From: Marinicella sediminis
GTDB taxonomy: Bacteria; Pseudomonadota; Gammaproteobacteria; Xanthomonadales; Marinicellaceae
Assembly (NCBI RefSeq): GCF_002000055.1
Contig: NZ_MVBD01000003.1
Location: 62,001 to 126,000 of the forward strand
Reading direction: 5' to 3'
Length of the DNA: 64,000 nucleotides
Shown one piece after another: positions 11,808 through 14,360 of the stretch (its first letter is position 1; every line of letters starts with the position of its first letter). The notes below the pieces were generated by a model, which made no database searches, was not told the origin of the DNA, and saw nothing but the letters and a program-made list of their open reading frames with translations. The position numbers and the translations under genes are program-made.

Positions 11808-12500
11808 TCAGGGTTGGTTGTCAAAAGCCTGCTGGCCGGTGAAGACTGCTTCCCATTGGTTGAACAAAAATTGCGGAGCGCTGGACAGATTAATTTTCAA
11901 ATCACCCTTGCGGCTGGCCAGACACTGATTGGCGAAATCGCCGGCCAGGTTTTCTTCAGTGAGGTTGATGCACGGATCATTTTCCGCCATGTCCGTTAAT
12001 GCCTCAGTCAGTTCTTGTGGACTGATGATGTGTGCCAATTGGGTGCGAAGCTGATAAGCACAGCCCTGTTGTTGAGATTCACAGGCGACAAAATCGATTT
12101 GACTGGGCGCCACCAGTAATTGTTCGCGCTGTAGAATTCGAACCTGCTTGGCAGTTTCCATGCGGTAAATCGGATGCGCATAAGCCCACAACAGCAGTGG
12201 CTTGAGCAGCAGTTGCTGATAAAAACTGTAGTGGTGAATATTGGGCAGTAAGACCTGGGCATGATTGATCAGCTGATAAGGTTGATCTTGCATGGCATAG
12301 GTGTACAAAGTAATGATGTTGCTGTTTTTGGTGCCGATGTTCAGCTGTTCACGCAGGGCGATGATGCGTGTTTTGTCCTGAGCGATCAATGCCGCGATCA
12401 GTGAATCATGATTTGTTTGCGGTTTTACCGGTTGACTGCCACAGCCGGTCAGTATCGCCAAAACCACACCAGCCATCACTGTTTTTACGTGCTGAATCAT
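11808..12500 (-). CDS. Predicted lipoprotein of unknown function
   Basis: The 230-residue product starts with a lipoprotein signal (MIQHVKTVMAGVVLAILTGC) whose lipobox LTGC gives a cysteine at residue 20, with Gly-Ser following. The mature part is mostly helical and contains four further cysteines (VACES, GCAYQ, DPCIN, NQCLA) that could pair in the periplasm. No family was recognised. It is divergent from the ECF sigma gene with 127 bases between starts, and ends three bases from the rep stop. A longer in-frame start at 12617 would lose the signal peptide at the N-terminus, so 12500 was chosen. Confidence 0.65.
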   Translation of the reverse strand: MIQHVKTVMAGVVLAILTGCGSQPVKPQTNHDSLIAALIAQDKTRIIALREQLNIGTKNSNIITLYTYAMQDQPYQLINHAQVLLPNIHHYSFYQQLLLKPLLLWAYAHPIYRMETAKQVRILQREQLLVAPSQIDFVACESQQQGCAYQLRTQLAHIISPQELTEALTDMAENDPCINLTEENLAGDFANQCLASRKGDLKINLSSAPQFLFNQWEAVFTGQQAFDNQP

Positions 12501-12570: not shown

Positions 12571-12595
12571 GTAACAAATTTAAAAATAAACCGTC
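12571..12595 (+). promoter_or_regulatory. ECF-type promoter before the sigma-factor gene
   Basis: GTAAC (12571-12575), 16 bases, then CGTC (12592-12595). This two-part pattern resembles ECF promoters, which often have an AAC core at -35 and a CGTC or TCTA-like core at -10. It lies about 33 bases before the ATG of the ECF gene, as expected for an autoregulated sigma factor. The assignment is by pattern only. Confidence 0.5.
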
Positions 12596-12627
12596 TTAAA
12601 CATAGAAAAGCGCACATAACTGATAGA

Positions 12628-13119
12628 ATGAGTATTTGGTACCGGTTACAAGTAAGTAAGAACCAGCATGGATTGTACGCCCTCGCGTATCAGATGTTGG
12701 GCAATCAGCTGGAAGCTGAAGATGTGGTTCAGGACACCTTCATTAAGTTGTGGGAGCGCCGTGAACAAGGCGGAAAATTTGAAAAGGCCTGGTTGTATAA
12801 AGTCACCAGGAATCAATGTCTGGACATACTGCGCAGAAGAAAACATGCCGTGGAATACCAGATCGCCCAGGCGGTGGGCTGTGATGTATCGCCTTCTGCC
12901 AGTGATGAAGTCATCAATCAGGAATTGTCCGGAGAAATTGCTGACGCGATCAGTCAGCTTGATGAACCGTACAAATCACTGGTGGTGATGCGGGAAGTGA
13001 ATGGCCTGAGTTATCAGGTATTGGCCGATTCCCTGGACCTGAGTTTATCTCAGACAAAGGTGTATTTGCACCGGGCCAGAAAACAGTTAAAAGAAAGTTT
13101 GGAAAGAACATATGCGTGA
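12628..13119 (+). CDS. RNA polymerase sigma factor, ECF family
   Basis: The 163-residue protein has region 2 (YALAYQMLGNQLEAEDVVQDTF, with the DVVQDTF helix), a linker, and region 4 (LDEPYKSLVVMREVNGLSYQVLADSL followed by QTKVYLHRARKQLK), so it is a small two-domain sigma-70 of the ECF type. The ATG at 12628 gives a normal length; an upstream in-frame start at 12502 would add a basic leader without family features. The stop overlaps the next gene by 8 bases. The likely partner is the downstream membrane protein. Confidence 0.92.
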   Translation: MSIWYRLQVSKNQHGLYALAYQMLGNQLEAEDVVQDTFIKLWERREQGGKFEKAWLYKVTRNQCLDILRRRKHAVEYQIAQAVGCDVSPSASDEVINQELSGEIADAISQLDEPYKSLVVMREVNGLSYQVLADSLDLSLSQTKVYLHRARKQLKESLERTYA

Positions 13120-13468
13120 GCAATCAATTGAACAACAGGTGTCAGAAGAACTGACCAATTATTTTGAACAGGCACGGCAGGTTAAATGTCCGTCCTCAAT
13201 GAAGCAAGGTTTGTATGACCGGGTGGGACTGAATAATTCAGTGCAGTGGCTTAAACCGGCCATGGCTTTTTCCTTTGTGGCATTGTGTTCATTGGGCCTG
13301 GTGTGGAATAACCATCATCAGGATCAGTTGGCACAGGCTGAAAGGGACATGCAAATTGCCATGCACTATATGCAAAAAATCAGTGAAAAGACCCTGGAAG
13401 ACACCAACACGCTGGGTATTAAGCCAGCGATCATCGTACCAGTTTCTAAATCCATGGCACAGATTTAG
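13112..13468 (+). CDS. Small single-pass membrane protein, candidate anti-sigma factor
   Basis: 118 residues with a cytoplasmic N-terminal ~48 residues, one membrane helix (about residues 49-67, PAMAFSFVALCSLGLVW) and a short extracytoplasmic tail. It overlaps the ECF gene by 8 bases. The topology and position are those of anti-sigma factors, although no zinc-binding HxxxCxxC motif of the ZAS type is present. The role is inferred from context only. Confidence 0.6.
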   Translation: MREQSIEQQVSEELTNYFEQARQVKCPSSMKQGLYDRVGLNNSVQWLKPAMAFSFVALCSLGLVWNNHHQDQLAQAERDMQIAMHYMQKISEKTLEDTNTLGIKPAIIVPVSKSMAQI

Positions 13469-13480
13469 TGGAGTAACAAA

Positions 13481-13996
13481 ATGAAAAAAACCATCATCTT
13501 TATACTGGCATTGCTGAGCATGCCGCTCAGTGCGCAGAATGTGCTGGATAAATTGCAAACCCTGATGCAGGTTGAGCCATCGGTTGAAATTAACCTTGGT
13601 CCGGCCATGCTCAGTTTACTCAGTGGCATGACCAGTGAAGAAAAACAAGTATCTGATGTGATGAAAAACCTCACTGAGATTTCAGTTCGGGTATATCGCC
13701 TGGATGACGGAGATTTTAAAGGAGACCTTGGGCAGATCAAGTCTTTCATCAATGCCACGGCCAGTGAAATGAAAGCTTTGGGCATGGAGCAATTGGCGGC
13801 CATCCGTGAAGATGACTCAACGGTGTTCATCATGGCTGAGATGGGTGGTGAAAGCATGCAGGGACTGTCAGTGATGTCATTGGATGATGAATCGGAGCTG
13901 GTGGTGATTAAAATCGGTGGTCAGATCATGCTCAAGGACCTGGCTGGTCTGATGGGTCGTTTTGATGTCGATCTTGATGATTTGGAGCTCAATTAA
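13481..13996 (+). CDS. Exported DUF4252-like protein
   Basis: 171 residues with a cleavable signal peptide (MKKTIIFILALLSMPLSA, cut before QN). The mature part reads like the DUF4252 family: an acidic segment, a KNLTEISVRVYRL strand, and the C-terminal LVVIKIGGQI. Members are often found behind ECF sigma and anti-sigma genes. GGAG stands before the ATG. The third position in the cassette suggests an envelope-stress output or sensor; its function is unknown. Confidence 0.7.
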   Translation: MKKTIIFILALLSMPLSAQNVLDKLQTLMQVEPSVEINLGPAMLSLLSGMTSEEKQVSDVMKNLTEISVRVYRLDDGDFKGDLGQIKSFINATASEMKALGMEQLAAIREDDSTVFIMAEMGGESMQGLSVMSLDDESELVVIKIGGQIMLKDLAGLMGRFDVDLDDLELN

Positions 13997-14020: not shown

Positions 14021-14056
14021 AAAGCCCGCATAAAAAGTCAATTGCGGGCTTTACTT
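14021..14056 (+). terminator. Terminator of the ECF cassette
   Basis: A perfect 10-base stem, AAAGCCCGCA paired with TGCGGGCTTT, with a 12-base loop, ends the ECF cassette 25 bases after its last stop. The following T run is short and interrupted. Confidence 0.75.
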
Positions 14057-14114
14057 TACCAGGACTAGTCTTTAAAATACGCCGTCTTGTTTGAACAGAA
14101 CATTGGAAACAGTT

Positions 14115-14360
14115 ATGAAAAAAGATATTCATCCAGAATACAGAGAAGTGGTCTTTCAGGACGCAGGCGCTGACTTTGCCTTCCTGACCCGTTCTTGCAT
14201 CCACACCAAAGACACCATTCAATGGGAAGATGGCAATGAGTATCCGTTGGTAAAAATCGAGATTTCTTCAAAATCACACCCATATTACACTGGTAAGCAA
14301 AAAGTGGCTGATTCCGGTGGACGTGTGGATCGATTCAAACGCAGATACCAAAGAAAGTAA
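14115..14360 (+). CDS. rpmE2: Ribosomal protein bL31, type B (zinc-free)
   Basis: The 81-residue protein starts [16 protein letters not shown] and has [11 protein letters not shown] and [12 protein letters not shown], typical of L31. The CxxC zinc ligands of type A are absent, so it is the zinc-independent paralogue. Such paralogues are commonly repressed by Zur, but I could not find a convincing Zur site upstream. An ORF start at 14091 adds eight residues that do not fit the family. Confidence 0.92.

Follow-up and report, generated by a model that had tools for sequence, protein, structure and literature searches.

An ECF sigma factor that is encoded in a compact cassette, behind a promoter element which it may itself recognise, raises the question of what it controls beyond its own operon. 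The cassette lies in a window of 64 kb, the whole stretch of DNA that was analysed (contig C23, positions 62001-126000), and the host genome of 3.99 Mb (G000) belongs with Marinicella. A first-pass annotation of the window had described the cassette as a self-contained unit whose targets are unknown. Neither part of that description found support: elsewhere in the genus, other loci that form a conserved set, a small RNA among them, have this element in front of them, and candidate targets can be named from the shared sites. We consider it likely, at a probability of roughly 0.75, that the cassette is an ECF/anti-sigma unit with this named candidate regulon, small RNA included, and that the sigma factor reads GTAAC-N16-CGT(C/T).

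Organisation of the cassette

The sigma factor of 163 residues is encoded on the forward strand; its open reading frame runs from the ATG at position 12628 to the end of the stop codon at 13119. It matches Pfam Sigma70_r2 (residues 9-72, 62.7 bits) and Sigma70_r4_2 (residues 103-154, 46.7 bits). Only regions 2 and 4 are present, 30 residues apart, in agreement with the hallmark of ECF (group IV) sigma factors, namely sigma2 and sigma4 alone with a linker of less than 50 residues (PMC8103513); the hallmarks given in that source include positive autoregulation. The best NCBIfam model is NF058625 (PG0214/GFO_1088), with a score of 114.7 bits that stays below the cut-off of 130. The closest named relatives are the sigma factors of M. 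litoralis (91% identity), M. meishanensis (88%) and M. marina (86%).

The next open reading frame on the same strand (13112-13468) overlaps the sigma frame by 8 nt and codes for a single-pass membrane protein of 118 residues, probably a short anti-sigma factor. It is followed by the gene for an exported DUF4252 protein of 171 residues (13481-13996, forward strand), which matches PF14060 with 50.3 bits (cut-off 23.9) but remains below the cut-off of NCBIfam NF058626 (GFO_1090; 38.9 against 150 bits). In the search of the whole genome, the two DUF4252 copies scored 50.8 and 70 bits against PF14060. Open reading frames and Pfam matches agree with the gene order first proposed. No Pfam match to the RseA or RseB families was found in the operon. 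The AlphaFold model of the DUF4252 protein has a mean pLDDT of 71.9; a fold search of the PDB with this model yielded nothing at E ≤0.001 (best Mog1 with a TM of 0.35, then PsbP with 0.33), and therefore we claim no function for the protein. A sequence search of the PDB gave no match.

A perfect 10-bp inverted repeat on the forward strand (14021-14052; arms 14021-14030 and 14043-14052, 10/10 paired) closes the cassette. As the first pass had proposed, it is probably the operon terminator, with a T tail that appears weak by eye; its loop of 12 nt lies outside the range of a simple terminator scan for loops of 3-8 nt, which did not report it. Directly 3' of the cassette lies the gene for a type B ribosomal protein L31 (window 14106-14360), a neighbour also seen at loci L004, L005, L009, L010, L011, L013, L014, L016 and L018.

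The divergent lipoprotein of 230 residues on the reverse strand (11808-12500) is present as described; its N terminus, judged by eye, resembles a signal peptide and carries an LTGC lipobox, and no Pfam family exceeds its cut-off. Its inclusion in the unit is another matter: the single promoter site of the window points toward the sigma gene, and the lipoprotein is therefore regarded as a neighbour that nothing in the window links to the regulon. Lipoprotein-like open reading frames were seen by eye at the same divergent place at loci L006, L007, L008, L012 and L015.

Conservation of the promoter element

The predicted autoregulated ECF promoter consists of a -35 element GTAAC (12571-12575, forward strand) and a -10 element CGTC (12592-12595, forward strand). 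The 64-kb window contains this one match to GTAAC-N16-CGTY, compared with 0.31 expected, and at least one match occurs in 27 of 100 shuffled windows; the site alone is therefore no evidence and becomes credible because it is conserved at orthologous loci. Before the sigma gene, GTAAC, the 16-nt gap and CGT are exact at all 15 readable loci of the family, which supports the initial claim of an ECF-type promoter belonging to the cassette. The scan tolerated a single mismatch to GTAAC/CGTC and also accepted gaps of 15 or 17 nt; any mismatch fell on the last base, which is C at eight loci, T at six and A at one. The count leaves out a sixteenth locus that is cut by a contig end (L014), and L002 is a repeat of L003. 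Stray one-mismatch matches occur elsewhere in L003 (with its duplicate L002), L028 and L032.

Beyond the family, the order of sigma gene, second gene and DUF4252 gene is kept in all four cassettes examined from four other families of the order, and in three of these cassettes GTAAC-N16-CGTA lies close to where the sigma frame begins. Among 41 genomes searched, the DUF4252 protein was detected in 21 and the sigma factor in 19. The two sets differ in two genomes only: in G006 the contig starts at the DUF4252 gene, while G015, whose assembly is fragmented, shows just the unlinked DUF4252 gene.

A candidate regulon

The genome search for promoter sites that had been suggested with the first-pass annotation was carried out and returned sites at the sigma operon and at conserved gene groups. 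A second, unlinked DUF4252 gene exists in 16 genomes (C40:63407-63895 in the genome of the window), and when all kinds of evidence are combined a site precedes it in 16/16. GTAAC-N16-CGTY was read at all ten fetched loci (L001 repeats L024); for the other six genomes it was seen in the site listing (G007, G011) or located by coordinates (G005, G013, G019, G021), the latter four sites ending some 31-73 nt upstream of the stretch of the gene that was matched.

A scan of 18 genus genomes with GTAACAA-N14-CGTY led to a third target, an exported VNG-repeat protein of 222 residues without Pfam match, which has an exact site at 14/14 family loci. Over the three sets of 15, 16 and 14 orthologous loci the spacer sequences have diverged, but the two ends of the element and the length of the gap are constant. 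At the level of the order, none of 16 VNG loci shows the exact site in the 300 nt before the match (many matches start inside the gene), and two show one-mismatch matches with other gaps; three genomes among these loci carry a sigma homologue. Because the exact site is missing at these loci, autoregulation alone is seen beyond the family, judged from predicted promoters.

The pattern GTAACWWW-N13-CGTY was run on 23 genomes and gave 58 + 3 + 86 = 147 sites, of which 143 were analysed; four (in G013, G005, G019 and G021) were left out of the grouping. All genome-wide pattern scans used the fixed 16-nt gap. Each of the 14 genus genomes with a DUF4252 gene, 12 of them with a detected sigma gene, holds 4-15 sites, and three sigma-bearing genomes from a sister genus hold 7-10 each. 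Altogether 97 of the 143 sites fall into gene groups common to at least four genomes; this figure includes five small RNA loci, two grouped by script and three by eye. The remaining 46 belong to no such group, and several lie within long open frames. The groups comprise pcm (pcm-tolC; 14 genomes), the unlinked DUF4252 gene, the VNG-repeat protein and an RND membrane-fusion protein (12 genomes each), sigma (11), an exported DDGSGS-repeat protein (10), an M16 peptidase that is a lipoprotein (9), an exported protein of 180 residues (8) and a DUF885 protein (4). Target families above their Pfam cut-offs are M16, HlyD_3, ACR_tran, OEP, PCMT and DUF885; the DDGSGS protein has a sub-threshold match to Toast_rack_N, and the 180-residue protein matches no Pfam family. 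The RND pump genes code for the membrane-fusion protein and then an AcrB-type protein. In the genome of the window, 8 of 12 sites belong to shared target groups; its RND site (GTAACCAT) falls outside the scan pattern and was found separately.

Raw site counts were rejected as a measure of regulon size, since, apart from G010 in one scan, every genome gave more matches to a reversed-pattern control than to the real pattern.

As a separate observation, an Anaerolineaceae locus (L327 3001-5116) carries, as judged by eye, an ECF sigma gene followed by genes for a short cysteine-bearing protein and a repeat-rich, secreted-looking protein, an arrangement that recalls the link of sigma factor and repeat protein in Marinicella.

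A structured small RNA with a predicted promoter site

One group of sites belongs to a structured RNA of about 139-140 nt that lies outside the window beside hisD (C1:33699-33837 of the same genome; L233 1501-1639). It follows the site and is flanked on one side by a divergent gene whose match to ThuA is sub-threshold, on the other by the 3' end of hisD. A long hairpin with the loop CUCUCCUCUU is followed by a second hairpin, which resembles a terminator, and by a run of T. The RNA was seen in seven genomes, and CUCUCCU is invariant in all seven sequences. Four of the first five sequences folded better than their shuffled versions (z -3.5 to -6.1). A model built from five genomes and run over a set of 25 (G016 is outside this set) recovered the four training genomes in the set and two new loci, in G004 (79 bits) and G005 (38 bits). 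At both new loci the RNA begins, to within one base, where an exact GTAAC-N16-CGTT ends, and the site is not part of the model.

In the seven-sequence alignment, which was fitted to the structure, 20 of 37 pairs are changed on both sides; the covariation value is 0.529 against a shuffled mean of 0.237, none of 500 shuffles reaches 0.529, and slid alignments give at most 0.131. The minimum-energy fold of the G005 sequence differs from the model. In G000 the end of hisD overlaps the final 29 nt of the RNA, a portion that includes the terminator's 3' arm, so that conservation of this part is not evidence by itself. Four of the seven loci were compared with Rfam and gave no match at E up to 1. The RNA was found neither in the four genomes without sigma factor described below (mostly with 129 first-look candidates scored per genome) nor in the DUF4252-bearing genomes G006, G007, G010, G011, G014 and G015, for which part of the first-look candidates were scored; its absence is weak evidence, because in most genomes only 129 first-look candidates were scored. 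Presumably the RNA pairs with mRNAs, and the loop may mask Shine-Dalgarno sites. A search of the 64-kb window with the anti-Shine-Dalgarno target AAGAGGAGAG gave one match with one mismatch versus 1.89 expected and thus no lead.

Genomes without the sigma factor

Neither the sigma factor nor a DUF4252 or VNG protein was detected in four genomes (G001, G002, G009 and G012). They hold 1, 0, 2 and 0 sites, none of them in a shared group; two genomes of other genera without the sigma factor (G018 and G020) hold no site. In an RpoD tree of nine genomes the four form one clade with a support of 1.000. The absence of sites therefore amounts to one evolutionary loss event, and the p value of 0.0003 from a rank test overstates the case because the genomes represent this single loss.

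Some target genes remain in this clade. The RND gene is kept in G001, G002 and G012 (59-61% identity), where no site is found within 300 nt at up to one mismatch, whereas the site is present in G000, G014 and G016; in the fourth genome of the clade a contig end truncates the gene. The genes pcm-tolC are kept in all four and the GTAAC half is missing there; the CGTT half appears to be coding (in the divergent gene) and stays in genomes without the sigma factor. Among sigma-bearing genomes the pcm site is present in G000, lies 388 nt upstream in G016 and is absent within 300 nt in G019.

Alternative explanations

Gene order, conservation of the promoter, shared sites, a covarying RNA and the absence of sites in the sigma-less clade are the observations made by computation. 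That one sigma factor reads all these sites is our assumption, and the main rival concerns precisely this point. The genome of the window has 19 matches to sigma-70 region 2, and the cassette sigma could read its own operon, the unlinked DUF4252 gene and perhaps the VNG gene, while the sites of the form GTAACTTT..CGTT (pcm, M16, DDGSGS, 180-residue protein, small RNA) and the RND site would belong to another ECF factor, such as the one encoded at L247 (G000:C42:69741-69941, reverse strand). G003 and G014 have both the cassette sigma and the L247 factor, G001, G002 and G012 have neither, and the target groups differ in the A/T triplet that follows GTAAC. Very near its start codon the L247 gene has ATAAC-N17-CGTT (G000, G003) or ATAAC-N16-CGTT (G014). 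These elements, however, start with A, and the gap is 17 nt in two of the three genomes. Moreover, the triplet varies within a single target group (AAA, ATT, TTT and AAT before VNG genes), and of the 45 sigma loci (out of 73) recovered from six genomes, the cassette sigma is alone in having an exact GTAAC-N16-CGTY upstream, in a partial comparison in which 28 loci, including RpoD-like ones and L268, L278 and L279 of G000, were lost at the phmmer step. We regard a division of the sites between two sigma factors as unlikely. The phyletic pattern was rejected as sole proof of the sigma factor, since three other ECF factors show the same presence and absence in the genomes compared. The L247 element is possibly an autoregulated promoter of similar type.

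A second alternative is that the 118-residue protein is a co-activator or an unrelated membrane protein and the sigma factor is under transcriptional control alone. The protein has no match to zf-HC2 and nothing above a Pfam cut-off, and only about 45 residues precede the membrane segment. Against this stands its resemblance to proteins that occupy the same place in the operon in four further families of the order and match a profile of the 118-residue protein (8 of 15 family sequences) at 96.6% with an E value of 6.6e-10, starting from residue 23. The matched region is the membrane and periplasmic part, and the C-terminal part is conserved in eight family sequences with an invariant AMHY and N..GI.P..I.P. 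The counterparts carry an extra front part with a zf-HC2 signal, which in one exceeds the cut-off of 22.2 (22.4) and in three does not (15.1, 18.0 and 19.3). From these comparisons, the 118-residue protein is probably a shortened anti-sigma factor without the zf-HC2-like front part, and we assume that it inhibits the sigma factor; a role unrelated to inhibition seems improbable.

That the sites reflect chance or other constraints such as coding sequence or composition is very hard to believe: a site does occur in 27 of 100 shuffled windows, the reversed-pattern control is rich in matches and half of the pcm site appears coding, but both ends and the gap length are fixed around diverged spacers at three sets of orthologous loci, and two small RNA loci found by a site-free model carry the site.

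Relation to known systems

The nearest working parallel found is the SigAb/SabS system of Acinetobacter baumannii, likened here by features of the system and not by homology of the sigma factors. As far as the available excerpts of PMC12153292 describe it, SigAb recognises GTCAAC, 16-18 nt and CGTT, targets sigAb, relA and sabS, and has a small direct regulon with the small RNA SabS as well as the small anti-sigma proteins AabA/AabB. In these excerpts it resembles the Marinicella system as a gammaproteobacterial ECF factor other than RpoE, with (here predicted) autoregulation, a small RNA in a small regulon, a -10 element CGTT and downstream anti-sigma genes in overlapping frames; the -35 element GTAAC, the fixed 16-nt gap, the other targets and the DUF4252 protein in the operon set the Marinicella system apart. 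With RpoE-RseA-RseB it shares an envelope ECF factor, a (probable) membrane anti-sigma factor and a small RNA arm, but its operon shows no Pfam match to RseA or RseB and its candidate regulon is small. The -10 element of the cassette, CGT(C/T), probably differs from the RpoE consensus. Three non-coding RNAs belong to the E. coli RpoE system according to the excerpts of PMC12153292.

The same gene order occurs in another phylum, in the ECF operons of Porphyromonas gingivalis (GFO_1088/GFO_1090 families), to which the best NCBIfam model of the sigma factor also points, although, as noted, both proteins score below the respective cut-offs. FLL361 is presumably the PG_0686 mutant. The excerpts of PMC10101095 describe PG0214-PG0218 and PG0985-PG0987 as encoding sigma factor, putative anti-sigma factor or hypothetical protein and DUF4252 protein, and report that both are up 5- to 11-fold in FLL361 under peroxide; those of PMC9045371 report that PG0985-0987 are lower in the dhsphK1 (sphingolipid kinase) mutant. 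By analogy, these data hint at envelope or oxidative triggers for such operons. A full-text search for DUF4252 returned, in the excerpts obtained, transcriptome tables in which the family appears and no promoter or regulon of a DUF4252-linked ECF operon. The literature search gave no mention of GFO_1088 or GFO_1090, and a search for Marinicella with sigma factor or small RNA gave no publication on the subject by title.

Proposed model and significance

In the model that we favour, the short membrane protein would keep the sigma factor inactive until envelope stress releases it. From GTAAC-N16-CGT(C/T) promoters the freed sigma factor would then transcribe the genes of its operon together with a small, conserved set of other targets, so that the cassette would stand at the head of a nameable regulon. 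On the protein side this would comprise the second DUF4252 protein, the VNG- and DDGSGS-repeat proteins, the M16 peptidase lipoprotein and the exported 180-residue protein, together with export functions, i.e. the RND pump (membrane-fusion protein and AcrB-type protein) and pcm-tolC. For the DUF4252 proteins we assume a role outside the cytoplasm, either as effectors or as feedback sensors. The C/U-rich loop of the small RNA could mask ribosome-binding sites. A more specific version, to which we give even odds, has a minimal anti-sigma factor and two arms, one of proteins (paired DUF4252 proteins, repeat proteins, peptidases and RND-TolC export) and one formed by a repressing small RNA whose CUCUCCU mimics an anti-Shine-Dalgarno sequence.

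The clade without the sigma factor offers a case in which the absence of one sigma factor accompanies the absence of its sites while some target genes remain. DUF4252-linked ECF operons exist also in Bacteroidota, for example in P. gingivalis. Promoter, conserved target list and small RNA can be read from genomes that include the named strains M. litoralis KMM 3900, M. meishanensis NBU2979 and M. marina X102, which makes the pathway directly testable. The likely targets of the sigma factor, which include genes for a pump, proteases and secreted proteins as well as a new small RNA, can now be put to the test.
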